A DNA stretch of 36,732 nucleotides, taken from the IMG/VR virus record IMGVR_UViG_3300047510_002417, positions 1 to 36,732 of that record; one strand, written 5' to 3'. This DNA comes from a virus. Position numbers and translations under genes: made by a program. Position 1 is the stretch's first letter. Each line of letters starts with the position of its first letter. The notes below the pieces were generated by a model, which had not been told where the DNA came from, made no database searches, and worked only from the letters and a program-made list of their open reading frames with translations. Of this stretch, positions 4,947 through 35,966 are shown one piece after another.

Positions 4947-4954
4947 TATTTATT
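4947..4954 (-). promoter_or_regulatory. Late-promoter-like core AATAAATA
   Basis: The minus strand reads AATAAATAC, one mismatch from the T4 late core TATAAATA at its first base. It ends 20 bp before the ATG at 4926, the same spacing as three other such cores in the window. It partly overlaps the stop codon of the upstream 618-aa gene. Transcription would start about 14 bases before the ATG. Confidence 0.5.
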
Positions 4955-9548: not shown

Positions 9549-9568
9549 AGCGGTCTCTTTTAATGTAT

Positions 9569-9576
9569 TATTTATC
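9569..9576 (-). promoter_or_regulatory. Late-promoter-like core GATAAATA
   Basis: The minus strand reads GATAAATAATAC, one mismatch from TATAAATA. It ends 20 bp before the ATG at 9548, matching the 19-21 bp spacing at 4926, 28076 and 33917. It would start a unit covering the 203-aa protein and two fibre genes, and it settles the start codon of that protein. Confidence 0.55.
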
Positions 9577-9602
9577 AAGTCCTATAATATGGTATTTTAA
9601 CT

Positions 9603-15600: not shown

Positions 15601-16184
15601 CACCAAAGCATACCTACGTGCTTTTCATCCCATTTTAATCCATCATTGACATTTAAATTCTCAGATGCTACTGAATATATTGCTGGATCAAAATAAGTTT
15701 TATATTTTATTTCTTGATCCGCAGTTCCAGCAATTTTTCCTTGTAGAGGATTAATGATGTCTAGGTAAGAAACTAAAGAATTTGTAATTCTGTTATACAA
15801 ATATGTCTTTTTAATTTTAGTAGTATCAGGAGCCTTATGCTCTACATATTTTAATTTCCAAGATAAATCTCCAGCAGGTTTACTATAACTATAAATTTTT
15901 CCAATATTAGATAATACTAAACTATCCTCTAATGGAGCAGATACTAATATATTATTATTTGATACCGAAATACTATATCCGTAATTGTCTGATAAATCAT
16001 TGATAGTAGAATCTTCGTCCAAATAAGGTGTTGTTAAACTTTCGCCGTAAATGTAATTAACATCATATCTATCATAGATGTCTACTCTTCCGGTATCTAC
16101 TTGTAAATCCACTATTCGTAAGAAGTTATTATCAAATGTAGTACGTGTCTTATCAAAAACTGTAATATTTTTCAATATCGCCAT
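9603..16184 (-). CDS. Giant tail/baseplate structural protein, probable C-terminal part of a split gene
   Basis: The frame encodes 2193 residues. Residues about 1-102 hold a GRVDIYDRY segment and a seventh FG-GAP-like blade (NYGYSISVSNNNILVSAP, about 67-84) that continues the six blades ending the previous ORF. Two pairs of GxGY modules follow (FGYVNAP near 500, SGYGYD near 538, GSGYITRP near 865, GSGYLKAP near 905). After about 1000 come repeated beta domains with the pattern VNGVxL...DYxF...GTLTL. A GIVEINGERIEYF box lies near 1766, and a GTTDFTLVGASSNTVGVEF module, common in aquatic phage structural proteins, near 2023-2065. No Shine-Dalgarno precedes the ATG at 16184 and the overlap with the previous ORF is 32 bp. 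It is thus probably the C-terminal part of a protein of about 5,000 aa. Confidence 0.7.
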   Translation of the reverse strand: MAILKNITVFDKTRTTFDNNFLRIVDLQVDTGRVDIYDRYDVNYIYGESLTTPYLDEDSTINDLSDNYGYSISVSNNNILVSAPLEDSLVLSNIGKIYSYSKPAGDLSWKLKYVEHKAPDTTKIKKTYLYNRITNSLVSYLDIINPLQGKIAGTADQEIKYKTYFDPAIYSVASENLNVNDGLKWDEKHVGMLWWDLNRAKFLENSVGEIVYRSTNWNKLYKTSSIDIYEWVASPYLPSEWDRLSETEEGFSQGISGASKYGDTTYSVKRRFDTLTNTFVSTYYFWVKNPNLIPNVSGRSMSAADVSRIISDPVSYGYPCVALIGTDSFSLSNVKNLLEDDKVVLNIQYWIIDDLTKNVHSEWKIISETPDTVIPKEIEKKWLDSLVGKDYQDRLLPDKRLPFKLKYGIESRPRQSIFINRIEALKEFIERTNLVLKNLVIVDFADLTDLLSTDEEPSIISGLYDKVIDLDQELRLIGTSRLKDASVQLIVKDGRIVDFEITNQGFGYVNAPYIKVVGKGKGAILKSIVFDGKIVGVNIIESGYGYDQDTYAIVRPYAVLIKNDSESLSNWAIVNWNSNKKRWERVKKQSYNVTNYWDYIDWYDTGYNQYTPIDFVVENTYQLSSLESSIGSIVKVKNIGTGGWVLLEKYSNLVTIDYTQNYKVIARQNGTIKFSSSLYNFTNTTFGYDAQLYDSLYYDNFAEKELRIIIDSIKNKLFVEDLRIEYIKLFFASLRYVFKEQYFVDWAIKTSFVSANHKAGYLQKKVSYNNDSLQDFESYIQEVKPYRTKIREYVSSYSTLENTQTSITDFDLLPSIQPDLVIKPVNAKVDDSNGSIQYFDSVMETYPWKFWLDNVGFSVQSIEIAEAGSGYITRPVVRINGGFGSGAVAKAYINGGKLSRIDLISQGSGYLKAPEVIIDGGLSVGGTPARAVAIIENSVVRSNKLSIKFDRITRRYYVTELIVTETFVGNNSRKQWPLKYSPNLNYDKTTVKINGVDILKFDYQLSSKKSTAKGYTSYSGLIIFENAPQSNSQVTVTYEKDFNHLSAADRINFYYDPQKGQIGKDLSQLMQGIDFGGVNITGLGFDINGGWDSLPWYTDGWDGFDAEFDDYIASVSDSSYTYHLPYVPAVGQQINIYHNGRRIDDPYFSVYDGVTVQPNGRKIPPAGTIMDTWIGDGVSDTITIPDGGTFDIDLSPGDKLIFRKNTSDGSYPGDINEYDTQLSGGNLAYTTATGFAPDDILLDGEGFITPAHSHAPEEIVPGHISDTVAIKMFRLPKSGSSTIFFNNYLADGVTNSYSYGQNISSPSAIIVKYNDLVLKQGVGYTVDYVNNTISLIDNLGNPLIPSQRELVSVIAFGFGSNSVLDIGTSVSDGSTLEIVTNAPWPRLQNDRLDTNALDRLGSIVIVNGVYVNYELFETDATYASPHRVGIRLADAPLDGTDIHYILTGDNNQSLSTVYSYQVPADGFAITYTLPDNTVGTSTPYENNVLVIKNGQVLTSGITTNFVMQDNQLVYNFPPYKAEPFTINPTEFFVYVNGVELVKGEDYVFSSGTLTLTLSKENYVEGGTLTLLDYSASDYFFIGNDITFLDSPQVSDDIRVISFYNHNTEKIIRNYERFDINASLIPGTSSYFEYTKIRGGSIRLFRTVKRDDYIWVIKNKILLSHSVDFYLDDDLRTIKFADNFEETDKLEIILFDDNNVQLGYGYMQFKDMLNRFHYKRIRKSKSTRLATNLLQKALTIEVEDGSVLSKPNPSKNLPGIVEINGERIEYFTLNGNTLGQLRRGTLGTGTPEVHIAKTYVIDIGPTETIPYNDQHIVETFIGDGSSQDLLLNYNANVSTTDWYRDTIPETFGRSDELDVFVGGYRLKKTSYELYEDSNSQPYSPEGDTQFEAEFSVDGTNKLRLTRGAPDNSKIVVVKKLGRAWEDAANPVQIFRNVRPSFGDASFDVTKVNSNYTVKLIDAGTVYNQGDTLYLSGAQLGGSSPENDINITVTESLATRGTNFAKNAKIYPGGSLFSAGYFIIGESYVIDFVGTTDFTLVGASSNTVGVEFVATGAGTGSGSAFILVGLPNPSEQLFTMASGTANILWYNAYFIGNGGSGYIKSIDNTGTTGSFIVELDNELNNKSSIMSKEWAVYPNKDPLRSIVQFTYTGTGLENGFVCKSLSESNNPIADFLKNTETVFPEYVTTQSTNIK

Positions 16185-19100
16185 TAGCAGAGAATACAGC
16201 TAAAGTTTCTCCATTATTCATAAAGTCTACATAAGAACCGAACTTTTCTCTTGGTTCAGCTCTTTGCGAATATAAATCTTGTTGTTTATAATAGACATCC
16301 GATGCTTGTTTAAAAATTACAACTTTGCCTTGATCAGTTGTAATTTTGTCGGCTAATACACTACCAACGGCAATTGTAGTTCCGTCATCAGACACAGCTA
16401 TGGATTCTCCAAATCTTTCTTCTTTAGCTATTCCTAAATCTTGATTAGCTCCTAATGTTTGAGAAAGAGAATATGCAGCGCCGTCAAATTTATAGACAAA
16501 AACTTTTCCTGTATTTGTAGTTCTTGGGAACAATTTTTTCCATTCATGAGATTCTTCTAAATTAGTTCCAGAACTGCCATCGCCTATCCAATGACTCATG
16601 CATTGAAATAAAGTAGCTTTTGTTTTTTTTGGAGTTACAGATATAATTTCTTCTTGATATACAACATCGCCTGGATAATATTTTCCGTTAAGTTGAAATC
16701 TTCCTTGATATCCGTAAGACGAATCTTCATATTGAACGTTTAATAGTTCCCATTCACTTTCAATAAACTCATCTTCGTTAGGATTGCTATCACTATCAAC
16801 AGCATACTGCCAAAATCCTCCTTGATGATATGTGATATCTCCTTTAGAATAAATGATAGTTCTTTTGAATTTTCCTTTAAAATTTCCGTAATTAAATTCG
16901 TCAGAATAAGGAGCAGAAATAATCAATGTATTACCATCTTCTGCACTTAATCTAACATCATGTCCAAATTGATCTCCAGAAAATACTAATTCAACAGAAT
17001 TATTTTTTAAAGGAGGAGGAAATTTGTAACTAGAATCAAAAATAACATTATTATCTATTTCAATATTATCTACAACAATTTGAGGGAAATATCCTAAAAT
17101 AGATGTTGCAGAAGTTACAAGTTCCCAAGCACTAGGATTAGTCTCGATTGGTGTAGGATCTTGTAATGCTAAACATCTATACAATTGATTATTAGCTGGA
17201 TTTAAAACAATATCGCCTGGATAATACTGATTAAATGAACTAAACGCTCCGGTATAAAATCTATTATAATCCATTTTCCAGAAACTAACAGTACTATCTA
17301 CTTCAGATTCTCCATATCTAAACATATAGACACGGCCACGACCTCTTTGTAAATCGTTATCAAACTGATACCCTGGGCTACTAATTGCAAGAACATAATC
17401 ATTTCCTTGTTTTGCAAAAGTCATTTTACTTCCGAATCTTTCTTTATTTGATGGCTCCGGGCTTACAAAACTATGTACAATAACATATTTTCCATCTGCT
17501 TGTTTTTTATAAAGATTGACATACCCTTGTTCTGTTAAAGTACTCGGTGATTTACTTCTATCTGTATTAATTAAGTATGCTGGTGTCCAATCTCGTCTAA
17601 ATCTAAATTCATCGTATACTTTAGATCCAAATTTTGGATTTAAAATTGTGTTTGTTGTTGGATAACCTGAACCCGGATAATCTAACCATTCTAAATTATC
17701 GTATGTATCGACTGAGCTGTCACCTAAGATAGTACTTTTAGCATACCAGTGCGTACTTCGAATTCTTACTGCGTCGGCAAACTGATACGTAGTACCTTCG
17801 TTAAAATCCCCTTGCCAGCCGGAGCGAATACGGCTTGCTAATGGAGCAGCGATTGCCAACCATTCGCCGTCTGGACTGAACGCGGTTTCGTAACCAAATC
17901 CTTGTGCTGCCCTATATGCGGCGCCGCCGTCGATATCAGATGGGAAAATATTATCTTTAGGTTCAATTACAAAAGTTTCAACCCACTTAACATCACTTAC
18001 AGATTTACTAAAAATTATTACTCGATTATCTGATGTAGTTACAGCACATGTCGATCCATCTTTTGTAGAAGAAACTTTTAAACCAAACTTAAGATTTTGT
18101 TTAGGTTCCGGAGTTTCAAAAGATAATCTATTATAAACTTTATTATTTTCGTAAACTCCTTTTAAATTTTCTCCGATGTTGTTTACCCATATTAATTCAC
18201 TTGATTTAATAATAGGAGGTAAAAATTCATTGGCAAAATTAATATTATCTATTTTATTAGAAGTAAGTACAAATATAGTAAAGACAGTACTATCTAAAAC
18301 TTCTACATCTTGTCCTGCGAAATCTTTATTGACAGTAAAAGTTCTTCCTTGAATAGATTCAACTTTATAAAATCCTTTAATTTGTTCATTCTGATCTATA
18401 CCGATGTATTGACCTACTTGAATACTAGGAATTTTATCACAAGTTATCGTAAATCCTGTTTCGGTAAATTTGACAGATTCAACGTTTATATTTGAATTTG
18501 TTAATCTGTAAACATTCCAATAATTATTTTTAACTGTATCGAATGCACACCAGATATAATTACCTTCAATTAGTTCTGATATGTCCTGTTCTAATAATTC
18601 GTCTAAAGTATCAATCGCTAGCTGAACATCGTCGTATCTTACAAATCCTGCTGATCTTAAAAATTGTTTTACGTTTCCTAACGGCCAAGGATTACTGTTG
18701 TAGATAACTGGTTTAACATATACGTCAGTTGGGCGTTGTCTTATAACATAGTCTGTTAATGATAAATTTACATTAGATGTTAATTCGACAGGCTGCGGAG
18801 TTAGTTTAAATAAATTTTCATCTAACTTGAACTCAATTTCTTCAAACGCATCCGATGCTCCGAACTCTCCTACTCGAAGTGCCCATTCTTCATTAAATTC
18901 TAAACTTTCTTGATCGTCTAAACTCAAGGTATCAAAAAGTTTACTTAAGACATTTTGACTGCCTTTTTCTACTATCATACCTTGATAAAATTTATATTGG
19001 CTAACGTCGTCTTTAATAATATTTTCTAAATATTGTCTTTTTTGATATCCTATTAAATGTTGAGCTAGTCTTTGTTGTTCTGAATCAAAGTTATCAGTGT

Positions 19101-22100
19101 CTAAATCATAAAAATCTCTAAATTGATCGGCTTTGTAGTCCCAATTTGACAATAGTTGGCTCTCGGGTTTTTCTTCTAGTCTATGCCAATCTTCGAAATT
19201 AAATTCCTCAGATCCTAAAACAAAACGTTTGGCGCTGTAGTAAAATTCTTTAAATTTTACAATATCACCTAAATTATAATCTGTCCATATTCCCCAATCA
19301 TTTATTTTGGCTTCATCGTATATAAATCCAGGTATTTCAAATCCACCTAGCCATTCAGAAGCAACGTATCCTAAAACTTTAATTCTTTCTTGACGATAGC
19401 CTGGGGCTAAATCGTAAATTACATCATTGAATAAAGTAGTGTTATCAATTACAAGTACATGTTCTTTTTGAATTGTATATAAGACTGCTCCATAAATTCC
19501 TTGATTAGAATTTTTAACTTCAAGATAAAAATCATTTTTATTTCTATATACTTGTAATAAAGATGTATCTAACAAGTTGCCGTCAACTCTATAAATTTTA
19601 TAGCCGTAAAATGGATCTTTAATATCATTGATTACTTCAAGATTTGTTTTAAACACTAATGTTTGCGCAGCAGGACTTAATGCTAAGACGGATCCTTCTT
19701 TCCAATTCTGCGTAGTCCAGAATGCAAATTCTTGCAATGAAGTTTTCCAGTTAGTTACAGTTTGTAATTCGTTGTTAAATTCTTCAAAAACAAATCCTAA
19801 TTGTTCTAAATATTCTCCATAACCTTGAATAAAATCCGCAACTTCTTGTATTGTAGATAATTTAGTTCCGTATGCTAAAGTGATTGGATTTCTATTATCC
19901 CAAGACTTTCTTAAAATAATTTCCACTCCTCCAGATTCTGGAAGTTTTGGCAATTTTGCATATAATTCATTATCAAATGAATCTGTTGTTTGATGTGTAG
20001 TCTTTACTCTGTAATAGCTTCCTTGATATAAGACAACTTTACCGGCGGCATATGTTTTATTTGATGTCCAATCAGCAAAACTTTCGCTTATTCCTCCTAC
20101 TTTAATAACTGTTCCAGTTTGATTATATGGATAATATACAAAGTAAGGATTATCTAAATCATATCCTCTAATTTCATAACCGTCAGGATACTTTGTAACT
20201 ATAACTCCACTGTACACTATCTTTTTAGTTGGGCTAGATGTGTTTAAAAATAAATTGTAGTTTTCTTCGGGAACAAATACTCCGCCAGTACTAGTCGGAG
20301 ATTTACTGTCAAGCAATAAACGTAGCTTTTGTTTACTAGTAAAAGAACCTATTCTAGATCCAATTTTATTAGTTAAACGTTGTAAATCATCTTTATAAGT
20401 ATCTACTAACGATAACAAATCGCTGCTAATAAAATCAACAATATAATTTACTAATCCTGATGTATAAATTCTATCACTTTGAGCAATAGTAGTAGGCAAT
20501 ACTAAATCTTTTAGTTTTAGTCTTAGTCCTGTTTCATTATAGATTAGTTGGTTGTTTAAATTGCGCTTTGTTCTTGAAATATCGAAACAAGACGACAACA
20601 CTTTATTAGGTTGTAATAATAAAAGAGTCTGTATAATACTGAATGGATAAAAACTAGATTTTTTCCACGCAGATTCAACTGGGCCTTGATCTCCAAATGC
20701 ATAATAACCCTCTGATGTTGGTTTTAAAGGCCCTTGAGCAAAATTAGCACGTACAGGATCTGCTAAATTTCCTTGATTGTCTACTGGCGTTCCGTATTGT
20801 AAAATAGGTTTAGCAAACTTTTCATTTATTCTAATTGGCTGATCAGGTTCTCTGATAATACCTTGTGCTATATCGTCCCACAGAATTCTGTTATCAGAGG
20901 TATAAGGTGCAGGACCATATGTTTCTATCCACCACTTAGGTTCTATTGAGAATCCTAGACATTCCCAAGGATGTGTATGAGGTCTATCTGTATCTAATAA
21001 CCAATTATATACACCTCTCCAAAATGCTGGAATATCTTGTCCTTCTGGAGTAAAGTTTCCTCTATAATTAAATGTAAATGGATTTAGTCTGTCCCAGTAT
21101 GTTTGCTGAGTATAATCTTCGTTGATTAACAATGTCCATTGATAAAAGAATTTACTTAACACTTCATCAAATTCATTCTTTGAGAAAGATGTTGCTCTAG
21201 AATAACCTGGAATAATATCGTAAATGTCAAAAATAGTTGTATCATAGTTAGATTTAATATTATTAAAAATTCTTTTTTCAAGTTCTAATAACATGTCATC
21301 TCTATAATCACCGTATGCCAATGTTATACTACCATCGTGACCTTGGATAACTTCTCTTGGTTCTAGGTACGTATCATCAACAAACTTTTTAGGTTCATAT
21401 TTAGGATATAATCCTAATTTCGTTGGAGTAGCCGGGCAAAATGATCCGTCGGTACTTTCGTACTCTACTATTTCTAAATAGTCATCGACATTCAATTCTG
21501 CATTTATAGTGATAAAAACATCATCACCGAACTCGTAATCTCTTCCATGTAAGAGTTGTTCTCCATTTAGATATAGATAGACGGCTTTATTAGATAATGA
21601 AGTAAGATTAAAATTATTTGTCATTGGATAAATTTTTAATCTTGGATCTTCAATAATGTATTCTAGTTTGTTAGCCACTGTATAAGCAAACATATCAGAA
21701 AGATAATATGGTTTATTACTTGCCTGATTTTTGCCCATTTGTTCTAACACATAATCTACGTGAAGTCTGGCTTCAGTTTCTATTCCGGTATTAGAAGCAG
21801 CTACTAAGAAACTTCTTTTAAATTTACCGTAATCATCTTTAGCTTTTTCTAAAGCTTTAAAAATATTAAAGTTTCTTTGTCCAAGATGATATACAGATAA
21901 ATTTAAAGGTCCAGCATGTTGTAAAAATCTTGTTCCATATCCAGATACATCACCTAAGTCTCGTAAATTGTTAGCTCCCGGAAACTCACCAGAAAATCCT
22001 TCTACATTTTCAACTATTGAACCTACATGATCAATAACTTCTCCTAATGTAAATTCGTTGACATTGTCGTTTAAAGGATTATTTTGTAAGTTTAAAGGAA

Positions 22101-24624
22101 TATCATAATGACCATTATTATTTTTATTTTGTTTTGAAAAACACTTTAAAGTTACTACATCATTTGTAGAAACATTCTGAGTTAAATGGACGTATTTTCT
22201 TACTATGTTTGATTCAATACTAAATTTATCTTTACTTAAATATAAACCATTTATATAAACTCTTACTTCCAGATCATCTAAATCGTTTTGATTATCAAAC
22301 ACATCTATAGGAAAATCGTTCACCAAATTTGAATTTTTGAATATTCTAACTATTGGTTGTAAATTATTAATCTGTGTTTTTGTCCATCCGTTGGCATAGG
22401 AATAATTATCTAAGCCTTCAAGTTGTCTTAAGTATGCAATATCAGTATTTTTAGTTTTAACTGATGTAATTTCTTTATATCTAAAAGATTCATTTAATAA
22501 ATTAAATTCAAAAACAATATCTCCAACATTGTTTATATTTTTATAAGCTAAAGGAAATCCTAGACTAGGATCAGATACTCCTGTTCCTGTTTTATAACTA
22601 AAAATTTTATTTCCTTGAAAAGTGCTACTATCATAAACAAGTGAATCAGAATAGCTGACTTCATTTTCGTCAAACAAATCAAATAGAGGTGGCTGATTTA
22701 CTTTAAGTTTTTGTTGTGCATATTTCCAAGTTGTACCATTATACCAGTACATATAACTTCCGTTTTCAACTCCAGATTTTATTAACAATGTTTCATTTAA
22801 TAAAGGAGCTGAATCAGGCTCTTCAGTAAGATTAATCTGTCTACGTAAGCCATTGTAAACTTCGAACTTATGAAGCTCGTCTCCTATTGCTAAAATATCA
22901 ACAGGCACAGTTAATAACTTGTCATTAAACAGTTGAATTCTTAATGTATCGACCACATATACATAATATATTTTTCTATTTTCTAAGCCGCCAACACTGG
23001 TATTTCCATTATTAAGATAAACAATTTGATCACCAGATGACAAGTTATGCGGTGAACTAACACTAATAGTATTAGTTTCTATATTAACTTGTGTTTCAGC
23101 GTTAAAAGTAAATTGTCTACTTGGAATTACTACGTTAATAAAATTAACTTTAAAAATTCTGTCTTTTACAAGAATATCTTCGTCGGCTGTAAAAAGAATT
23201 CTCATTCCATTTGTAAGATCAACTCCATCTACATTATATCCTAAACTTCCTTCGATAGTTGAAAATACATCAATAGTAAAATTGTCGATCAAATCTACGT
23301 CTTTTTTAGACTTGTGTCCAAAATTGTAAAGTTTTATATTATTCTTAAATTCAATAATTGGTCTATTTGCTCGACGTTCTTGATCAAAAACTGCCACTGT
23401 GTTCGAAGCTTGCGCTGCTGCTTCTATAACATTTTTATGAGTCCATCGATTATATCTAGACCACGGATTTCTATCTATTGATCCTCGACTGATTGTAATA
23501 TAATCCTTTTTTCCGGCAAAAGTGCTTGAAGAACTAAAAGTATCAAGGTCAAAACCTGTATCATCAAATAATAAATCTTTTGTTTCTGAATAAGAACTAA
23601 CTATTTCAAGTTCCGATTCTGGTATTAATTTAATTCCTGTGCCTACACCCTCAACATACCAATATCCGTTTGAATAAATTTCTGGAGTTAATCTTCCAGA
23701 AAATTTTAATTTCATACCATTGGACATGGGTATACCGTTAGACATAGTATAAGTTTTCTTACCTAAGATATCTTTTTCTAAATCTAAAAAGGTATTTTCT
23801 TCAATATCTAAAATTTGAAATACGCCACCGGCGTTAGCATCATTTTCACTAACATAGAATAATACATCTGGTGCATTAGATGGCACAGTAAAAGTAATAG
23901 TGCCATTAGCTGTACCGTTATTAATAACTCCATTATTATATCTATTATCAGTACTCTGAACCCTAGAAGTTTTTATACTAAACGGATTATTAGGAGAATT
24001 AATTTGAAAAACGTATGTTTGACCTCTGTAAAGTCTTAGAGTAGGATTTCTTATTAGGCCGTCTGGGCTGAATAGAAATGCGTAATTATCGCCCTCGTCA
24101 ACTAATAATATGCTGTACGTACTAATAATTTCTTCTTGTTGTCCGAAAACTTCTATAACATCAGGACCGTAAGGTAACCAGTAATAATTTTGAAAATTTA
24201 CAAATTTGTCCCAATCTATAAACGGATTCCAACTATAGGATTCCTGACGATTTAATTTTTCGTGATTAGATACATTTCCACCTAAGACTTTAATTTGATT
24301 GATATAATCAATGTAATCTTTAAAGAAAGTGACATTATTAAAATCGTCTTGGATAACTGCGGCTGGTTCTAATTGATAATTTTGTCTGGTTACGTCGCTA
24401 GCATTAACGAAAATATCATCTGCTTTTACTGCTTTAGAATTTTTACGCCCAATAAATCCGTTTACTTTTTTAACAGATCCTGGTTGAATTAATTGATCTA
24501 AAGTCGATTGTAAAAATTTTCTGTTGCCTGTAGTCCTAAAATATCTAGGTAATAGATCAACAGATGATCTCTGAACGGATTTATTAGTAGGTAAACTAGG
24601 TTCTTCTTGATCCATTTGTGACAT
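16153..24624 (-). CDS. Giant baseplate/tail structural protein, probable N-terminal part of a split gene
   Basis: The frame encodes 2823 residues and follows gp6 with a TAATG overlap and GGAG upstream. It takes the place of gp7 in T4 order but is nearly three times as long, so homology to gp7 is only a guess. Residues 1-170 hold the conserved-looking start (SSVDLLPRYFRTTGNRKFLQ, later NFQNYYWLPYGPD). About 190-270 resembles a cupredoxin-like domain without copper ligands. The middle is a long mixed region. Five short modules of the pattern Y-x-x-G-D-x-V...W, like chitin-binding folds, sit near 1523, 1782, 2467, 2595 and 2650. Six FG-GAP-like blades start near 2178, 2240, 2396, 2550, 2738 and 2799. 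It ends in TTT TGA just where the next ORF continues the propeller one base out of frame. Confidence 0.7.
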   Translation of the reverse strand: MSQMDQEEPSLPTNKSVQRSSVDLLPRYFRTTGNRKFLQSTLDQLIQPGSVKKVNGFIGRKNSKAVKADDIFVNASDVTRQNYQLEPAAVIQDDFNNVTFFKDYIDYINQIKVLGGNVSNHEKLNRQESYSWNPFIDWDKFVNFQNYYWLPYGPDVIEVFGQQEEIISTYSILLVDEGDNYAFLFSPDGLIRNPTLRLYRGQTYVFQINSPNNPFSIKTSRVQSTDNRYNNGVINNGTANGTITFTVPSNAPDVLFYVSENDANAGGVFQILDIEENTFLDLEKDILGKKTYTMSNGIPMSNGMKLKFSGRLTPEIYSNGYWYVEGVGTGIKLIPESELEIVSSYSETKDLLFDDTGFDLDTFSSSSTFAGKKDYITISRGSIDRNPWSRYNRWTHKNVIEAAAQASNTVAVFDQERRANRPIIEFKNNIKLYNFGHKSKKDVDLIDNFTIDVFSTIEGSLGYNVDGVDLTNGMRILFTADEDILVKDRIFKVNFINVVIPSRQFTFNAETQVNIETNTISVSSPHNLSSGDQIVYLNNGNTSVGGLENRKIYYVYVVDTLRIQLFNDKLLTVPVDILAIGDELHKFEVYNGLRRQINLTEEPDSAPLLNETLLIKSGVENGSYMYWYNGTTWKYAQQKLKVNQPPLFDLFDENEVSYSDSLVYDSSTFQGNKIFSYKTGTGVSDPSLGFPLAYKNINNVGDIVFEFNLLNESFRYKEITSVKTKNTDIAYLRQLEGLDNYSYANGWTKTQINNLQPIVRIFKNSNLVNDFPIDVFDNQNDLDDLEVRVYINGLYLSKDKFSIESNIVRKYVHLTQNVSTNDVVTLKCFSKQNKNNNGHYDIPLNLQNNPLNDNVNEFTLGEVIDHVGSIVENVEGFSGEFPGANNLRDLGDVSGYGTRFLQHAGPLNLSVYHLGQRNFNIFKALEKAKDDYGKFKRSFLVAASNTGIETEARLHVDYVLEQMGKNQASNKPYYLSDMFAYTVANKLEYIIEDPRLKIYPMTNNFNLTSLSNKAVYLYLNGEQLLHGRDYEFGDDVFITINAELNVDDYLEIVEYESTDGSFCPATPTKLGLYPKYEPKKFVDDTYLEPREVIQGHDGSITLAYGDYRDDMLLELEKRIFNNIKSNYDTTIFDIYDIIPGYSRATSFSKNEFDEVLSKFFYQWTLLINEDYTQQTYWDRLNPFTFNYRGNFTPEGQDIPAFWRGVYNWLLDTDRPHTHPWECLGFSIEPKWWIETYGPAPYTSDNRILWDDIAQGIIREPDQPIRINEKFAKPILQYGTPVDNQGNLADPVRANFAQGPLKPTSEGYYAFGDQGPVESAWKKSSFYPFSIIQTLLLLQPNKVLSSCFDISRTKRNLNNQLIYNETGLRLKLKDLVLPTTIAQSDRIYTSGLVNYIVDFISSDLLSLVDTYKDDLQRLTNKIGSRIGSFTSKQKLRLLLDSKSPTSTGGVFVPEENYNLFLNTSSPTKKIVYSGVIVTKYPDGYEIRGYDLDNPYFVYYPYNQTGTVIKVGGISESFADWTSNKTYAAGKVVLYQGSYYRVKTTHQTTDSFDNELYAKLPKLPESGGVEIILRKSWDNRNPITLAYGTKLSTIQEVADFIQGYGEYLEQLGFVFEEFNNELQTVTNWKTSLQEFAFWTTQNWKEGSVLALSPAAQTLVFKTNLEVINDIKDPFYGYKIYRVDGNLLDTSLLQVYRNKNDFYLEVKNSNQGIYGAVLYTIQKEHVLVIDNTTLFNDVIYDLAPGYRQERIKVLGYVASEWLGGFEIPGFIYDEAKINDWGIWTDYNLGDIVKFKEFYYSAKRFVLGSEEFNFEDWHRLEEKPESQLLSNWDYKADQFRDFYDLDTDNFDSEQQRLAQHLIGYQKRQYLENIIKDDVSQYKFYQGMIVEKGSQNVLSKLFDTLSLDDQESLEFNEEWALRVGEFGASDAFEEIEFKLDENLFKLTPQPVELTSNVNLSLTDYVIRQRPTDVYVKPVIYNSNPWPLGNVKQFLRSAGFVRYDDVQLAIDTLDELLEQDISELIEGNYIWCAFDTVKNNYWNVYRLTNSNINVESVKFTETGFTITCDKIPSIQVGQYIGIDQNEQIKGFYKVESIQGRTFTVNKDFAGQDVEVLDSTVFTIFVLTSNKIDNINFANEFLPPIIKSSELIWVNNIGENLKGVYENNKVYNRLSFETPEPKQNLKFGLKVSSTKDGSTCAVTTSDNRVIIFSKSVSDVKWVETFVIEPKDNIFPSDIDGGAAYRAAQGFGYETAFSPDGEWLAIAAPLASRIRSGWQGDFNEGTTYQFADAVRIRSTHWYAKSTILGDSSVDTYDNLEWLDYPGSGYPTTNTILNPKFGSKVYDEFRFRRDWTPAYLINTDRSKSPSTLTEQGYVNLYKKQADGKYVIVHSFVSPEPSNKERFGSKMTFAKQGNDYVLAISSPGYQFDNDLQRGRGRVYMFRYGESEVDSTVSFWKMDYNRFYTGAFSSFNQYYPGDIVLNPANNQLYRCLALQDPTPIETNPSAWELVTSATSILGYFPQIVVDNIEIDNNVIFDSSYKFPPPLKNNSVELVFSGDQFGHDVRLSAEDGNTLIISAPYSDEFNYGNFKGKFKRTIIYSKGDITYHQGGFWQYAVDSDSNPNEDEFIESEWELLNVQYEDSSYGYQGRFQLNGKYYPGDVVYQEEIISVTPKKTKATLFQCMSHWIGDGSSGTNLEESHEWKKLFPRTTNTGKVFVYKFDGAAYSLSQTLGANQDLGIAKEERFGESIAVSDDGTTIAVGSVLADKITTDQGKVVIFKQASDVYYKQQDLYSQRAEPREKFGSYVDFMNNGETLAVFSANGDIEKYYSF

Positions 24625-27600
24625 TAATTATTCTCCGTACTTGTAATCATTTGTTGTCCAGATGCTGTAGAGCTTGCTGATATTGCTCCAGACGCTTTTA
24701 ATTTATTAGCTGTAACAGTACTAATAATTTCTATATCTTTTACTGTAGCTCCGCTGATAAAAATTTGATCCTTTTCTGATTTAATTTCATAAAGAGCTCC
24801 AAAGCTGACTGATTCTTTTTTAGGGACAATAATAAAATTAACTATGTTAGGACTTAATCTTCTCATAACATATGTTGACAATTCTGAAAAATAAAAATTA
24901 TCACCAAAGTCCCAATTTTCAAGAGCAAAAAATTCATTAATTGCATTAAGAACATTTGCTTTAGCATCATTATCTGTAATAACTAAATCTGGATTTTTTA
25001 CAATTTTAAATGTTGCTTGTACATCTGGAGTTGCTTTTTCTCCAAATAATATTTTATATTTTACTGGATGATATATTACTTCATCACTAATAGATTTAAT
25101 TTTATTTAAATCCTGAGAAAGTAAATTATATAAACTATCTGAACTCTGTGGCAATGGTTCTTGGGCAATTGTTCCTGTTAACCATTGTCTAAATTTTTCA
25201 TCATATCGTTTTGTTAATATATAGATATCAATAATATTAGATACTCCTGGATCTATGCGGGCTTCATAATCAGCATTATGAATATATTGAAATTTAATAT
25301 TTGCTCTTCCCGGATAAACTTTATAATCTAAACTTACATTAAGTAAATTTTGAACTTTATCTAATTTTTTCACAACGTCAGTATCTATAAAATAAAAATA
25401 TTGTCCGTTATTATACAAACTAATACTTAAATCTTCTTCAGTAGATAAGACAATAACTTGTCCTGTATTTTCTACCCAACGATAATCTTCTTGACCTTGG
25501 GAAATTTCATACTTTTCTTGGATAACATATTTTGATAACGGATCAATAGTGGGTGCAACAATTTCATCAAAAATTACTGGATTATCAACTACTCCATCAT
25601 CATCATTATCATTAAAAGTAATTTGAATTTTTTTAGTATCTATATACCCATCTATTCCTCTAAACTCTTCTAGAATTTCCCAGTCTTTATCGTATGTGTA
25701 AGGAAGTAACCCGCCTGATGTAAGATCAGTATTGATACTTAAAACTTTAATTTTATCTTTAACTGTTGTATTAGTTCTAGTATCGTAAATTTTGTCGCTA
25801 GAATCAAAATAAAATCTTACTTGTTTATCACTTTCAAATACATATCTTATTTGACGACTTTTAACTGTATAATTTTCTGTATCAGTTGAAAATAAAATTA
25901 ACCAACTTGAGTCAAGTTGTTGGCCACTATTATCGCCTTGCTGTCCTAAACTAAAATTACTTAAGATGTCAAGGTTTACTTCAAAAACTATTTTCCATTC
26001 TGATGCATCAATATCATATCTTAGACCAAACGGCTTATCTGAAAATATTAAATCGATCATTGTAGAAATTGTACTTTGATTAAGATAAGAAATCCATGTA
26101 GGAATTAATTGATAAAGTATAGCGTTAGAAGGAATAACATCATTTAAAATAATTGGGCCTGATCCGTCAGATAATTCGCCGGTATTATTATTAGTTCCAT
26201 CTCCTGATACACTTATTATTTTGGTCCAAAGACTAGTTGTACTATTAGGTGTTGTAGCAGATCCTTGAACTAGTTCATTATTATTATTTTTATCAAAATA
26301 ATAACCTTCAGGTGCTCTAAATTCTACTAATGCTCCAATTTTAATAAATCTTAACAAAGTATTAGTAAAATTTCCTACTTTATAAGTGAATGCTAAATCG
26401 CTATCACCAATATAACCTGTACACTGATTAGTATCATTAGATTTAGAATACCAGGATATATTCAAACTAGAAACTAAAATTTTAAAAAATTTGGAATAAT
26501 AAAAATCTCTTAAAGAACTTTTATTCAGAATATCAGTAATTTGATTATAAATTACACCTTCAATATCTGTTCTAGTTACGTAATTAAATTTAAAAGTTTC
26601 TGAAAACTCTTCTTTGTATAATATTCCATCATCTGCAAACAAATTCGTTTTACTATATTTTCCTGTAGGATCTACTAAATCAAAGTATCTACTAATACCA
26701 CTAGAACTTCTGTTCACAGCTTTTACTTTTACAATCTCTTGATTAACACTAAGAGGACTAATGTTATAATCCTCCGCAGTAATCATTCTGTTTTGAGTGT
26801 AATATACTGCTGGTGCTCTAGATTTAATATTATCACTAGATTCAGTTTCGCTAGAATTGTTAACCGCTGATTGTAAATTTAAAGTGATAGTTACAGTTTC
26901 AAGTTGGCCTACATTAGAAAAATACGGAATCTCTAAGTTAACATTTCGAATATCTTTTGGATTAATTGTATAAGATAACGCATTACTTACTCTATAATAA
27001 GCTCTAAAAGTACCTAACGGTAAATTGCCAAAAGTTCCATCACTAAACACTATGCTGACTCTATCGCCGGCTCTAGTAATATCTCCGTAAATATTTCTTA
27101 TAGACTTTGACAAACTATTATAGATAATGTTGTTACCTTCTAAACTAGGAACTTTTTTCCAATATTCCGATTCTAATCCGTTTTGATCTAGTCGATACAA
27201 CCATACATCAGAATTATTGATATTCACTGCATCTATGTCAACTGTTTCATTCGTACCTGGTTGATCGATTGTAAAAGTTCCTTGATTCAGCACTCCCTGC
27301 CTAAAATGTAAAAAGAATCCTGTATTAGGACTAGCATTGCCTTTGCCATCATTTCTATATAAAAATGCTAATCTATTTCCTTGTGACGGTGGCTCTTCAT
27401 AAATTTCGTCGGCATCTTTAAAAGAAGTCGACACAATTTCAAAAATCATATTTCTTCCGTCTACAGCTTTTGTAAACGTATACACAGGAACATCAGCATT
27501 GGCTGATTGAAATCTATATTGCTCGGTTGGGATACTATAAATGTTCTTTTTATCAATTGGACTGCCGAATCGAGCAGTAAACGGTAACGCACCATTTAAT

Positions 27601-28076
27601 ACTCTAATAAACTGATCGTACCAATCAGGATTAGATAAATCATTCCAGGAAATTACTTGTCCAGATAAATTTCTTCCGTTACTATCAAGTATATCTTCTG
27701 TAGTAGAAATAGTAGTAAATTTTAATAAACCGCTGGCGCAGATGTTTCTTTTAGAATTATAGCCTAGCAATCTAGCTAAACGTAATACGCTTTCTCTTCT
27801 TTCTGCTAGCTCTAAGAAATTGTCTCGAGCATTAAGATCAGTTCTAAAACTGATGCTTTGACCCATAAATGCTATTAGATCAATTAAGGCTAAAAACTCA
27901 CTAGATTCTATATAATCATTAAAATCCTCAGGATAATTTTCCCTGATGTAATTAATCATCACTCTACGAAGATTTTCAAAATCGTAACTTTGAAAGTCGG
28001 CATTTTGAAATGTTTGATAAATTCTTTTCCAGTCTTCGGCTACTAAAAGTCTATTTTGTCTATCAGTTGCTGACAT
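24624..28076 (-). CDS. gp6: Baseplate wedge subunit gp6
   Basis: The 1150-residue protein is recognised from its N-terminus: LRRVMINYIRENYPEDFNDY, then FLALIDLIAFMGQSISFRTD and ARLLGYNSKR (about 38-108), the pattern of T4-like gp6. Near the C-terminus, KANVLNAINEFFALENWDFG and SELSTYVMRRLS (about 1035-1080) match the baseplate-J-like end. T4 gp6 has 660 residues, so this one is much longer, with extra beta-rich material in the middle (about 420-950). gp6 forms the ring holding the wedges together and changes shape when the sheath contracts. The gene begins 53 bp after gp25, with its own late-promoter-like core, AGGA before the ATG and a TAATG overlap into the giant gene. Confidence 0.88.
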   Translation of the reverse strand: MSATDRQNRLLVAEDWKRIYQTFQNADFQSYDFENLRRVMINYIRENYPEDFNDYIESSEFLALIDLIAFMGQSISFRTDLNARDNFLELAERRESVLRLARLLGYNSKRNICASGLLKFTTISTTEDILDSNGRNLSGQVISWNDLSNPDWYDQFIRVLNGALPFTARFGSPIDKKNIYSIPTEQYRFQSANADVPVYTFTKAVDGRNMIFEIVSTSFKDADEIYEEPPSQGNRLAFLYRNDGKGNASPNTGFFLHFRQGVLNQGTFTIDQPGTNETVDIDAVNINNSDVWLYRLDQNGLESEYWKKVPSLEGNNIIYNSLSKSIRNIYGDITRAGDRVSIVFSDGTFGNLPLGTFRAYYRVSNALSYTINPKDIRNVNLEIPYFSNVGQLETVTITLNLQSAVNNSSETESSDNIKSRAPAVYYTQNRMITAEDYNISPLSVNQEIVKVKAVNRSSSGISRYFDLVDPTGKYSKTNLFADDGILYKEEFSETFKFNYVTRTDIEGVIYNQITDILNKSSLRDFYYSKFFKILVSSLNISWYSKSNDTNQCTGYIGDSDLAFTYKVGNFTNTLLRFIKIGALVEFRAPEGYYFDKNNNNELVQGSATTPNSTTSLWTKIISVSGDGTNNNTGELSDGSGPIILNDVIPSNAILYQLIPTWISYLNQSTISTMIDLIFSDKPFGLRYDIDASEWKIVFEVNLDILSNFSLGQQGDNSGQQLDSSWLILFSTDTENYTVKSRQIRYVFESDKQVRFYFDSSDKIYDTRTNTTVKDKIKVLSINTDLTSGGLLPYTYDKDWEILEEFRGIDGYIDTKKIQITFNDNDDDGVVDNPVIFDEIVAPTIDPLSKYVIQEKYEISQGQEDYRWVENTGQVIVLSTEEDLSISLYNNGQYFYFIDTDVVKKLDKVQNLLNVSLDYKVYPGRANIKFQYIHNADYEARIDPGVSNIIDIYILTKRYDEKFRQWLTGTIAQEPLPQSSDSLYNLLSQDLNKIKSISDEVIYHPVKYKILFGEKATPDVQATFKIVKNPDLVITDNDAKANVLNAINEFFALENWDFGDNFYFSELSTYVMRRLSPNIVNFIIVPKKESVSFGALYEIKSEKDQIFISGATVKDIEIISTVTANKLKASGAISASSTASGQQMITSTENN

Positions 28077-28097: not shown

Positions 28098-28105
28098 TAT
28101 TTATT
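28098..28105 (-). promoter_or_regulatory. Late-promoter-like core AATAAATA
   Basis: The 53-bp gap between gp25 and gp6 contains AATAAATAT on the minus strand, 21 bp before the gp6 ATG. The gap has no evident hairpin, so upstream transcripts may read through and this promoter would add to expression of gp6 and the giant genes. Confidence 0.5.
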
Positions 28106-32551: not shown

Positions 32552-32851
32552 TTATAACCCTAAGATTTGTTTTAAACTGTCGCCTTTTGGAATATAAATC
32601 TTTGTACCTGGAATAAAATCGTATATAGGATCTGTTAATACATCCATATTTCTTTGAATAAACACCCACCATAGTTTTGAATCTTTATACAAATCATATG
32701 CTAACAAATCTGGTCTATATGTATATTGAGGTTCTATGGTATACAGAAAATCATCTGCTTCTGCACTAACAGGCCGTATTCTTAGAGTACTTAGATAATT
32801 GTTTTCTATTGGAGTATCAGCCCAAGGACTATTTCCTTTATAAGTTGCCAT
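32552..32851 (-). CDS. gp53: Baseplate wedge subunit gp53-like
   Basis: This 99-residue protein contains TYRPDLLAYDLYKDSKLWWV (44-63), matching the PEELANAIYGNPQLYWV core of T4 gp53. It ends with IYDFIPGTKIYIPKGDSLKQ, a LysM-like tail found in short gp53 relatives. T4 gp53 has 196 residues; this one keeps the core and lacks the long C-terminal part. gp53 clamps neighbouring wedges together and is needed to close the hexagonal baseplate. The gene sits one base after the tail-tube cap-like gene, with AGGA before its ATG, and five bases before the hub gene, so the three are probably translated from one message. The assignment is fairly secure. Confidence 0.8.
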   Translation of the reverse strand: MATYKGNSPWADTPIENNYLSTLRIRPVSAEADDFLYTIEPQYTYRPDLLAYDLYKDSKLWWVFIQRNMDVLTDPIYDFIPGTKIYIPKGDSLKQILGL

Positions 32852-32852
32852 A

Positions 32853-33917
32853 TTATAGATATCCTACATTGTTATCAACATATCCACCATTGATGAATGT
32901 GTTTAAATTAAATTTTCTCATGCTTTGTCTACTGTATATTGGTGTTAAAACGATTGTAAAGCTACTTTTTACTGGAACATGGCTTGCTCCTCCGAATGTT
33001 CCTAAATTAGTAGGAGTCGGTGTACTAGCAGGATTACTATTACTAGCATTCTTTAAAGCCGATATTGCCGAAGATGCAACGGCACCAACTGCTAAAACTT
33101 GTGAAAGTTGTGCTGCACCTAAAGCTCCTGCAAGTCCTGCAAATTGTGCAGTTCGTTGAGCAAAGCTTTGAGTCACAGGAACTGGACTAGCTAATACACT
33201 GCCTGTTGTAGATGGTTGAGAATTAGAAACTCCTACTGTTGTAGCAATGTAATTTACATCCGTAGGAAGATCAATTGAAAAAGATTTTACCACTACAGGT
33301 ATATTTTTAAAAACATAATCTCCATATCCGTTGAATAATACTATTGGAGGTGGATTTCCTGCTATTTCTCCTACATCACCGGTATACATTTTTGTTATGC
33401 TTCTAAAATAATGCACAGCAGCTAACCAATACTGTGCTTGTACTGAATCTTCTGCATAAAATGGTGCCGTAATTTGAATCGAGTCTTGTTTACTATTTTG
33501 ATAACTTATTGAACTATAATTTTGATGAGTCAATTGTTGTTCATCGTATGACGCTGTTCCGGAAATAGCTATTTGAGGAGTATAAGGAAATACCATTCCA
33601 CCAGCAGCTTTTAATGGCTGTAATACTGGACTACTTAAAAAAGTTGGATCAGTAGGCAAACTTAATCTCACTCTCCAATCTCTTGACGATTCTTCGCCTG
33701 ACCATTGGGCACCAGCACTAGAACTTGCGAATGACGTATTTCCATTCACAGGTAAATTTATACTTCTTAATTGTGACAAGGCCATCGACGGGTTAGATAA
33801 ATTACTTAATGCACCTGCTAATCTGCCAGCGGTTCCTAGCACTTGTTTTCCAGCACTTGCCAAAGAACTAGTGAAGGCTCCTGTATTAACACCCGAACCT
33901 TTATCAAATAAACTCAT
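32853..33917 (-). CDS. Tail-tube cap/initiator-like baseplate protein (gp48/gp54-like)
   Basis: The 354-residue protein is the first gene of the leftward late operon. Its centre (GMVFPYTPQIAISGTASYDE, then QITAPFYAEDSVQAQYWLAA, HYFRSITKMYTG, and NGYGDYVFKNIPVVVKSFSI) has the pattern of tail-tube-like proteins that cap the hub. The end (SFTIVLTPIYSRQSMRKFNL) resembles the end of T4 gp48. An Ala/Gly-rich hydrophobic stretch (about 255-290) and a low-complexity N-terminus are unusual and could be flexible or packed segments. In T4, gp48 and gp54 sit on the hub and start tube polymerisation; I cannot decide between them. The ATG at 33917 has GGAG upstream and a late-promoter-like core 19 bp further up. 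Confidence 0.55.
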   Translation of the reverse strand: MSLFDKGSGVNTGAFTSSLASAGKQVLGTAGRLAGALSNLSNPSMALSQLRSINLPVNGNTSFASSSAGAQWSGEESSRDWRVRLSLPTDPTFLSSPVLQPLKAAGGMVFPYTPQIAISGTASYDEQQLTHQNYSSISYQNSKQDSIQITAPFYAEDSVQAQYWLAAVHYFRSITKMYTGDVGEIAGNPPPIVLFNGYGDYVFKNIPVVVKSFSIDLPTDVNYIATTVGVSNSQPSTTGSVLASPVPVTQSFAQRTAQFAGLAGALGAAQLSQVLAVGAVASSAISALKNASNSNPASTPTPTNLGTFGGASHVPVKSSFTIVLTPIYSRQSMRKFNLNTFINGGYVDNNVGYL

Positions 33918-33936
33918 TTTGGACTCCTATATCCAT

Positions 33937-33944
33937 TATTTAGT
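33937..33944 (-). promoter_or_regulatory. Late-promoter-like core ACTAAATA for the leftward baseplate operon
   Basis: The minus strand carries ACTAAATAATGG, ending 19 bp before the ATG of the gp48/gp54-like gene. The core matches TATAAATA at six of eight bases. It shares base 33944 with the -35 box of the opposing rightward promoter. Confidence 0.5.
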
Positions 33945-33972
33945 TGACAAAATTAACTGCATAGTTTATAAT
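33944..33972 (+). promoter_or_regulatory. Perfect sigma-70-type promoter for gp55-gp47-gp46
   Basis: TTGACA (33944-33949), a 17-bp spacer and TATAAT (33967-33972) match the bacterial housekeeping consensus exactly. An AAGGA ribosome binding site (33981-33985) and the gp55 ATG (33993) follow at the right distances, leaving a leader of about 14 bases. Unmodified host polymerase should read it, making gp55, gp47 and gp46 early genes. Confidence 0.88.
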
Positions 33973-33992
33973 TTTACAACAAGGAATCAATA

Positions 33993-34814
33993 ATGAAAGT
34001 AAATTATCTTAATAACAAAGATTTATTAGACGAAATTCACAAATCAAAAAATACATATTGCTCGTTTATCAAACCAGAATATCATCAATATGATATCATT
34101 TTACCACATGTTGATAAAATTAACATAAGAACTGTAGCAGAAGCCAAAAGAAATCATGCTAAACGGCTGTCTGTTAAAGAATATGAACGACGTCGCGCTG
34201 CTGGAGAAAAAGTAAAACAGGCTGAATGCGAAGTTGACTACAAGAAAATTGCCAAGCAAGATCTTGTATTTAGGATTATGACTTTTGATCATATTCCTCT
34301 CAATTCTACTAGAAAAAAGAATCCTAAAACTACAGCCGACGGTCGTGATAAAGTAAATTTTCCTCCTTTCCAACATTGGAAATTTGACGAAAATGATATA
34401 CTTGTATGTGTTGGAAAAAGTCATTGGAAAGGCACTGTTGAAAAAGGAAAATTTTCAAAAGATCATGGCCAAATTACAAATACTTTGGCAAAAATGTACA
34501 TTAAATTATGCGAACGTTACGCAACCAGAGGTAATGTTCGTGGATACACTTACAATGACGAAATGCGGGGACAAGCAATTTTACAATTAACTCAGATAGG
34601 ATTGCAATTTGATGAAAGTAAATCTAACAATCCATTTGCATATTTTACTGCTGCTGTGACAAACAGTTTTGTTAGAATTATTAATATCGAAAAACGAAAC
34701 CAAGTGATACGTGACGATTTACTAGAGATGAACGGAATGAACCCTAGCTACAGTAGAACAGGGCAAGGAGAACATGAAGCAGCTATGCGCAGACACGAAG
34801 GTGGCGACGAATGA
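33993..34814 (+). CDS. gp55: Late-transcription sigma factor gp55, extended form
   Basis: The 273-residue protein contains the gp55 signature: an N-terminal NYLNNKDLLDEI (4-15), then a region-2-like domain (about 158-240) with YIKLCERYATRGNVRGYTYN, EMRGQAILQLTQIGLQFDES and NPFAYFTAAVTNSFVRIINI. In T4 this 185-residue factor replaces the host sigma and recognises TATAAATA. Here about 125 residues (27-150) separate the N-terminal segment from the core; they are basic at first (AKRNHAKRLSVKEYERRRAA) and contain FPPFQHWKFDENDILVCVGK. The C-terminus ends HEGGDE and lacks the hydrophobic SLDFLYE-like tail with which T4 gp55 binds the sliding clamp. A perfect sigma-70-type promoter precedes it. Likely targets are the four late cores in this window. 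Confidence 0.88.
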   Translation: MKVNYLNNKDLLDEIHKSKNTYCSFIKPEYHQYDIILPHVDKINIRTVAEAKRNHAKRLSVKEYERRRAAGEKVKQAECEVDYKKIAKQDLVFRIMTFDHIPLNSTRKKNPKTTADGRDKVNFPPFQHWKFDENDILVCVGKSHWKGTVEKGKFSKDHGQITNTLAKMYIKLCERYATRGNVRGYTYNDEMRGQAILQLTQIGLQFDESKSNNPFAYFTAAVTNSFVRIINIEKRNQVIRDDLLEMNGMNPSYSRTGQGEHEAAMRRHEGGDE

Positions 34815-34969
34815 TGAAATATATCACTTTAACATTACCAGAAGGACAATATCTAAAATTATTGTTTGTAAGAATGAATGATGAAGATACATGGGTATGC
34901 CATATGGATAATGATATGATGAACAGTGTACAAAAAATTATAGGGCAAGGATTTTATGGGTCTATTTAA
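34811..34969 (+). CDS. 52-residue ORF between gp55 and gp47
   Basis: A frame opens ATGATG at 34811, overlapping the gp55 stop as ATGA, and ends with TAA at 34969, overlapping the gp47 start by 14 bases. GAAGGTGG lies about seven bases before the first ATG. The protein (start MMKYITLTLPEGQYLKLLFV, later DEDTWVCHMDND, end QKIIGQGFYGSI) has 52 residues, with a strand-rich beginning and a short helix near the end. I do not recognise it. Tight linkage on both sides and a good ribosome binding site argue that it is translated, perhaps with a role in transcription or recombination like its neighbours. Small unassigned genes are common at this place in T4-like genomes. Confidence 0.65.
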   Translation: MMKYITLTLPEGQYLKLLFVRMNDEDTWVCHMDNDMMNSVQKIIGQGFYGSI

Positions 34970-35966
34970 AAAAGTTGCATGTTTTACTGACATACACTTT
35001 GGACTGAAAAGTAATAGTCAAACACACAATCAAGATTGTTTAGACTTTGTAGACTGGTATATTGCAAAAGCTAAGGAGGAAGGATGTGATACAGGTATTT
35101 TTCTCGGCGATTGGCATCATAATCGTAACAGTCTTAATATCACTACTATGGATTTCTCTCTCAGAGCCTTGGAGAAGCTTGGTTCCAGCTTTGATAATTT
35201 TTTCTTTTTTCCTGGCAACCATGATTTGTATTATAAGGATAAACGAGATATACACTCAGTGGAGTTTGGAAAATACATTCCGGGGATCACAGTCGTCCAC
35301 AATCCAATCACCATCGACGAAGTGACTATGTGTCCTTGGTTGATAGGAGACGAATGGCGAAATATTAGTAAAAAAGGCGGACGTTATATATTTGGTCACT
35401 TTGAATTACCTAACTTCTTTATGAACGCCATGGTACAAATGCCGGATCATGGAGAGATTCAACTTAATGATTTTCAAAATTACGAGTTAGGCTTTAGCGG
35501 ACACTTCCATAAACGTCAACAACAAAAAAATATGATCTATATTGGCAATGCTTTTCCGCATAACTATGCCGATAACTGGGATGATGATCGAGGAATGATG
35601 ATTCTCGAGTGGGGAGGACAGCCCCAATATTACACTTGGCCTGAACAACCCACATTTAGAACTACTAAACTAAGTGAATTAATTGATCGTGCAGACGAAA
35701 TTATACTTCCAAAAGCACATTTACGTGTTAGTTTAGATATCGATATCAGCTACGAAGAAGCAAGTTTTATTAAAGAAAAATTTATGGGCGATTATGATAT
35801 AAGAGAACTTACACTTATACCAGAGAAAAAAGAAATCGAAATAAGCAACACTATAGACATCCAAGCATTTGAAAGTGTAGATCAAATCGTAACTAGTCAG
35901 CTCGTTAATATTGACAGCGAAACATACGATAGTAAAATCTTACTTTCAATTTACAATAATTTATGA
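34956..35966 (+). CDS. gp47: Recombination endonuclease subunit gp47 (Mre11/SbcD-like)
   Basis: The 336-residue protein has all metallophosphoesterase motifs of the gp47/Mre11 family: D12-x-H14 (FTDIHFG), GDWHHNR (51-57), GNHD (87-90), GH at 147-148 and GHFH (182-185). With gp46 it forms the nuclease that resects DNA ends so that UvsX can load for recombination-dependent replication and repair; in T4 it also helps degrade host DNA. Length matches T4 gp47 (339). AAGGA precedes the ATG at 34956. The stop overlaps the gp46 start as ATGA, so the two subunits are made together. The C-terminal part (about 230-336), which should bind the gp46 coiled coil, is less conserved. Confidence 0.95.
   Translation: MGLFKKVACFTDIHFGLKSNSQTHNQDCLDFVDWYIAKAKEEGCDTGIFLGDWHHNRNSLNITTMDFSLRALEKLGSSFDNFFFFPGNHDLYYKDKRDIHSVEFGKYIPGITVVHNPITIDEVTMCPWLIGDEWRNISKKGGRYIFGHFELPNFFMNAMVQMPDHGEIQLNDFQNYELGFSGHFHKRQQQKNMIYIGNAFPHNYADNWDDDRGMMILEWGGQPQYYTWPEQPTFRTTKLSELIDRADEIILPKAHLRVSLDIDISYEEASFIKEKFMGDYDIRELTLIPEKKEIEISNTIDIQAFESVDQIVTSQLVNIDSETYDSKILLSIYNNL

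Follow-up and report, generated by a model that had tools for sequence, protein, structure and literature searches.

Predicted early and late promoters stand back to back in a conserved register at the gp55 gene of a large phage

The window, i.e. the whole stretch of DNA analysed here, is a virus record of 36,732 bases from a large phage. Structural genes, those of the baseplate among them, form a leftward operon, and the gene for a gp55-type late sigma factor heads a rightward unit. Both diverge from an inter-ORF gap (Table 1), which extends from 33918 to 33992 and thus has the 75 bp given in an earlier, sequence-only reading of this DNA. The leftward operon includes two very large structural ORFs of 2193 and 2823 aa (9603-24624), which overlap by about 30 bp and both match phrog_10938. 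The gp55 of the window is 47-48% identical to its counterparts in PA5oct-like phages and about 40% to those of 121Q and RaK2. A hydrophobic C-terminal motif is retained in gp55 homologues according to a review on T4 (PMC2988020). At the C-terminus of the window protein (34780-34814; ...RRHEGGDE) a hydrophobic end is not obvious by eye, and given a C-terminus judged in this way the coupling to the clamp may differ from the T4 pattern. At T4-type late promoters initiation depends on gp55, with the sliding clamp and gp33 as activators. A search for the gp45 clamp family (PF09116) gave no match in three relatives (G001, G002, G004), nor in any control genome.

Table 1 Features of the window discussed in the text; promoters and transcription starts are predicted
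Feature	Position	Strand	Remark
Leftward operon, baseplate and other structural genes	344-33917	-	
Rightward unit gp55-gp47	33993-35966	+	
gp55-type late sigma factor, heads rightward unit	33993-34814	+	phrog_12791 E=1.9e-78; phrog_234 E=2.4e-24
gp47/SbcD-like nuclease subunit, second in rightward unit	34956-35966	+	phrog_100 E=2.4e-62
Virion structural protein, heads leftward baseplate operon	32853-33917	-	phrog_12050 E=5.1e-47
gp53-like baseplate wedge subunit, second in leftward operon	32552-32851	-	phrog_7145 E=6.4e-28
Late promoter core ACTAAATA, T4-type gp55 core, -13 to -6	33937-33944	-	reads 33944 to 33937, towards baseplate operon
Late start	33931	-	14-nt leader before ATG; AGGAG (Shine-Dalgarno-like) at 33928-33924
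-35 element TTGACA, early host sigma70-type promoter	33944-33949	+	first T common to late core
Spacer, 17 bp	33950-33966	+	conserved in relatives; consensus about WWWWTWASTGCRTAGTT
-10 element TATAAT of early promoter	33967-33972	+	reads towards gp55
Early start	33979	+	14-nt leader before ATG; AAGGAA (Shine-Dalgarno-like) at 33981-33986
Late core AATAAATA, inside leftward operon	28098-28105	-	22 nt before gene 24624-28076
Late core GATAAATA	9569-9576	-	about 20 nt before likely ATG of gene listed at 8937-9578
Late core AATAAATA	4947-4954	-	21 nt before gene 3436-4926

Two promoter elements were recognized in the gap, and both lie where the sequence-only reading had placed them. The rightward one has the TTGACA and TATAAT hexamers of a host sigma70-type promoter, a spacer within the range of 16-18 bp and an early-type gene, gp55, downstream. 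A perfect TTGACA-N17-TATAAT was found once in the window, against 0.037 expected on both strands from base composition. The leftward element is a late core of the T4 type and precedes the structural genes of the baseplate operon. The pattern WCTAAATA occurs seven times in the window (10.6 expected), and ACTAAATA taken alone is no rarer than chance. On its minus strand the window has only four sites (33944, 28105, 9576 and 4954) with the late-core forms that were established in relatives, NATAAATA or RCTAAATA. All four stand about 20-22 nt before the ATG of a gene, which makes ACTAAATA credible as a late core. The early -35 and the late core indeed have one base in common, T33944, as had been claimed. 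This base corresponds to late-core position -13, the least constrained one (0.18 bits in 135 cores of relatives). Thus the essential parts of the two elements abut and do not truly overlap, and exclusivity would come from the polymerase footprints rather than from the single shared base.

Conservation of this arrangement in relatives had been named as a check. For this, 80 loci with a gp55 identity of 72-87% were fetched, and 79 sequences, the window included, had a readable gap. The compound TATTTA[G/T]TTGAC...TATAAT is present in these 79 gaps, with small changes in a few (e.g. TTGAT in L024, TAAAAT in L038). TTGAC follows TATTTA at an offset of 7 in 78 of the 79 loci and of 6 in the remaining one (L064); in two loci (L021, L022) the automatic scorer had chosen a wrong site, and pattern matching gave an offset of 7 in both. 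The arrangement is therefore shared by the relatives, and the constant register excludes a chance co-occurrence of both elements. After dereplication to 63 loci a conserved island of 36 bp emerged, which spans the late core to the -10 element. Its edges are sharp (0.02 bits at -8 and at +30), and the flanks differ in length and sequence. Mean pairwise identity amounts to 0.91 for the late core, 0.99 for the -35, 0.69 for the spacer and 0.97 for the -10 element, versus 0.42 for the left and 0.32 for the right flank. In most relatives the early promoter of gp55 matches the consensus perfectly or nearly so. On a gp55 tree, the -12 base of the adjoining late core switched about ten times between the valid letters A and C, and at least five of these switches are forced by well-supported branches, while G or T was never seen at this position in the normal register.

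The identity of TATTTA as a late core was examined in complete records of relatives. Nine of ten relatives, among them the 372-kb G001, have a single copy of the combination TATTTAKTTGAC in their record; the tenth, G004, has TTGAT. G001 harbours 31 sites of the type TTGAC-N18-TATAAT, and the TATTTA part is thus not general to early promoters. Without any prior input, ATAAATA turned out as the most sense-biased 7-mer upstream of G001 ORFs (58 on the same versus 10 on the opposite strand). The same-to-opposite ratio was 6:0 in G001 for ACTAAATA as well as for GCTAAATA, and 8:2 and 12:1, respectively, in four relatives pooled. By comparison, TCTAAATA reached only 1:0 upstream of G001 ORFs despite 42 occurrences in this genome. 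In relatives, N[A]TAAATA and R[C]TAAATA are accordingly the forms with an excess on the sense strand before genes, and they match the late consensus of T4 and that of Aeh1. Furthermore, no conservation is seen upstream of the 135 late cores collected in four relatives, in keeping with T4-type late promoters, which have no conserved -35. At the gp55 junction we ascribe the conservation upstream of the late core to the early promoter and its spacer. Two other motifs, GCTATAAT and TTTGCTATAAT, show a strong sense bias before the ORFs of G001 (372 kb, L091-L109), the former with 18:0, and are candidates for a separate extended -10 promoter class in this genome.

TATTTA was then related to the neighbouring genes. 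For 35 early promoters of G001 with a downstream gene, TATTTA was scored within 40 bp upstream and the start of a divergent gene within 100 bp. With automatic calling TATTTA was present at six of six promoters with a divergent gene, versus one of 29 others (p = 4e-6). The ratio became 7/7 versus 0/28 (p 1.5e-7) after a post-hoc correction for an HNH ORF that the ORF filter had missed and that was spotted by eye. As a control the rnh junction was used: relatives with a divergent HNH gene carry TATTTA 25 bp before TTGAC, and where the neighbour is a different, non-divergent gene TATTTA is absent and the early promoter is kept. Because TATTTA tracks divergent genes in both cases, it is, on these comparative grounds, a leftward late core at the gp55 junction and not part of the early promoter. 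We therefore reject as very improbable the reading of TATTTAG as a UP-like upstream part of an extended gp55 promoter, even though the block is AT-rich, lies in fixed register at about -43 to -37 and resembles the A-rich sequence frequent at -40 to -44 in T4-like early promoters (PMC1524935), since 30 of the 31 TTGAC-N18-TATAAT sites of G001 lack it in this register, TATTTA follows divergent genes in G001, it is lost at rnh where the divergent gene is absent, and its -12 base toggles solely between valid late-core letters.

Putative HNH homing-endonuclease genes with late cores of their own are found divergent beside early promoters (G001 97936, 225707 and 289688; L222-L242), and relatives have either both the HNH gene and the late core belonging to it at the rnh junction, or neither.

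A divergent junction of baseplate genes and gp55 is also present in PA5oct, 121Q, RaK2, Munch, XbC2, Hallingskeid and Vibrio phage 2.275.O; in Phosso and Atu_ph07 a nucleotidyltransferase-type gene adjoins gp55 at a divergent junction. The distance from the start of the late core to the start of the -10 element is 30 bp in the clade of the window. It is 33-35 bp in the 121Q/RaK2/CBB clade, and many members there have the TGRAACG type of -35 that was described for CBB (PMC5259590). For the PA5oct-like clade the distance by which TATTTA precedes TTGAC is about 42 bp, and 29 in PA5oct itself. Judged from these distances, a late core near the early promoter of gp55 is old and general, and the base-level contact of both elements is specific to the clade of the window, Atu_ph07 excepted. 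This Agrobacterium phage (L190) shares TATTTAGTTGACAAATTAACT, one base shorter than in the window, despite a gp55 of only 40% identity, and no clear -10 follows at a spacing of 16-18 bp upstream of its gp55. Among the isolates examined it comes nearest to the TTGACA-overlap form, which none of them shows together with a clear -10. A search of viral contigs for Atu_ph07-like relatives returned Atu_ph07 alone. Within the PA5oct-like clade (L118-L158) the register of about 42 bp between late core and TTGAC is nearly constant, and a conserved UP-element-like block, ATAAAC..TG.TTTTTAT..GAAA, lies between both promoters. In the 121Q/CBB/Munch clade (L164-L178, L192-L194) a hairpin with the loop AMGGATN directly follows the -10 element of gp55 at the predicted 5′ end of the gp55 mRNA. 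Its stem covaries in six distinct, hand-picked sequences (97% of cells paired, two-sided changes in three of six pairs); RaK2 does not align to it.

The spacer of the gp55 promoter differs from that of any other early promoter seen: its identity across the 63 loci is 0.69 versus 0.32-0.42 in the flanks, and it has invariant positions. At rnh the spacer of the early promoter varies more, although the relatives compared are closer (mean identity 0.62 with proteins 82-100% identical). Spacer conservation exceeds the needs of either the early or the late promoter, as the contacts of T4 late complexes with upstream DNA are to the backbone only (PMC7892883) and the late promoter hence does not account for it. 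A third DNA-binding factor may thus act at the spacer. It is unlikely that the 36-bp island is chiefly an operator, at which a phage or host protein on the spacer would arbitrate between the promoters like p4/p6 of phi29. The invariant spacer positions and Atu_ph07, which keeps TATTTAGTTGACAAATTAACT with a distant gp55 and no clear -10, would agree with an operator. However, relatives show neither a conserved dyad nor covarying half-sites (for the dyad AACT-GCAT-AGTT in the spacer of the window, positions 13 and 20 are without covariation), and no candidate binding protein was found. Moreover, degenerate and exact searches of G001, G002, G004 and G005 found the full spacer motif only at gp55, other matches having no TATAAT behind them or lying inside genes, which argues against a recurrent operator or a middle-promoter box.

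We consider it rather probable that the early promoter drives gp55-gp47 and the late core the baseplate operon, with a handover between them and a self-limitation of gp55. The two predicted promoters, their targets and their fixed register are supported by the comparisons above. The predicted starts are only 48 bp apart, which makes simultaneous occupancy sterically implausible; with a gp55-polymerase bubble that spans -12 to +2 (PMC7892883), each of the two polymerases, when bound, should lie over the core of the opposite promoter. Judged by this geometry the polymerases probably exclude each other at the junction, and the expectation of mutual exclusion in the sequence-only reading stands as far as occupancy is concerned. 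The stronger proposal of that reading, a switch dedicated to gp55 and acting on it by delayed negative feedback, is an inference; that exclusion in vivo would be strong enough to limit gp55 is less certain than mutual exclusion itself. In early infection only the right side would fire, from the host sigma70-type promoter, and yield gp55-gp47. As gp55 accumulates, gp55-polymerase would occupy the left side and transcribe the baseplate operon. With overlapping footprints only one polymerase at a time could be on the junction, and gp55-polymerase on the late core would lower further transcription of gp55 in proportion to its occupancy. The earlier proposal that the early promoter also blocks the late core early in infection is moot, because gp55 is then not yet present. 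The informative half of the switch model is the late shut-off of gp55-gp47.

Plain compaction has to be weighed against this switch. Two needed promoters would then share a 75-bp gap and exclude each other physically, but would fire too rarely for a regulatory effect. Indeed, wherever the 372-kb relative was found to have a close divergent junction, homing-endonuclease genes included, its early and late promoters stand back to back, and the layout is thus not peculiar to a switch at gp55. Divergent promoters of E. coli that overlap do not compete as long as their activity is basal, and one side is repressed when the other is strongly activated (PMC12825309). The register at the rnh junction is likewise constant, though among close relatives only; for the junction at 315148 of G001, relatives are too few and too close for a register control. 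Nor can tight overlap be required in all gp55 phages, as some 42 bp separate the two elements in the PA5oct-like clade. Nevertheless, insertions between both cores should harm neither promoter if compaction were all, and in 78 of 79 loci the register at gp55 stays the same despite variable flank lengths. The 17-bp spacer is conserved too, and the (near-)perfect consensus makes the early promoter of most relatives likely a strong one; such a consensus suggests high activity without proving competition. We regard compaction as possible but rather doubtful. A more tentative extension of the switch is that the 36-bp element of this large jumbo-phage clade combines a self-limiting sigma-factor switch with a spacer-reading factor that times the handover.

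No description of an early/late promoter overlap or a back-to-back layout at gp55 was found in the literature searched. The T4 late consensus is TATAAATA, and that of Aeh1 is CTAAATA with a/gC at -13/-12 (PMC2988020; PMC1524935). The window core ACTAAATA has the Aeh1 form, with the same position and core, and the window likewise encodes a gp55 homologue, here adjacent to the late core. Unlike in T4 and Aeh1, this core abuts the early promoter of the gene for its own sigma factor. For CBB, promoter motif classes include an ATAAATA late motif and a TGAAACG-type promoter before gp55 (PMC5259590). In the group of CBB, GAP32, 121Q and RaK2 the divergent junction of baseplate genes and gp55 is present in 121Q, RaK2 and relatives with a late core close to the rightward promoter, but the -35 is TGRAACG-like or weaker instead of TTGACA and no base is shared. 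In phi29 the early promoters A2b/A2c and the late promoter A3 diverge within a single intergenic region, as in the window, and p4 and p6 turn the early side off and the late side on (PMC3100819). There, the host polymerase serves both sides together with p4 and p6, whereas the late side of the window would use a phage sigma factor encoded on the early side. At bidirectional promoters of E. coli one polymerase binding event bars the opposite one (Warman et al. 2026; PMC12825309). Exclusion of the opposite side, and competition once one side is activated, is what they have in common with the window; they differ in that a pseudo-symmetric sequence is read both ways, while the window has two abutting elements for two sigma factors.

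For phages of the T4 type it has long been asked how the amount of gp55 and the handover from early to late transcription are set. According to a review on late transcription in T4, dosage and timing can be critical for a late factor that has an advantage for polymerase (PMC2988020). The conserved spacer hints at a possible further regulator, of which no report was found. If exclusion at the junction limits gp55, an element of just 36 bp, kept in 63 distinct phage loci, would provide feedback without a repressor, by promoter layout alone.
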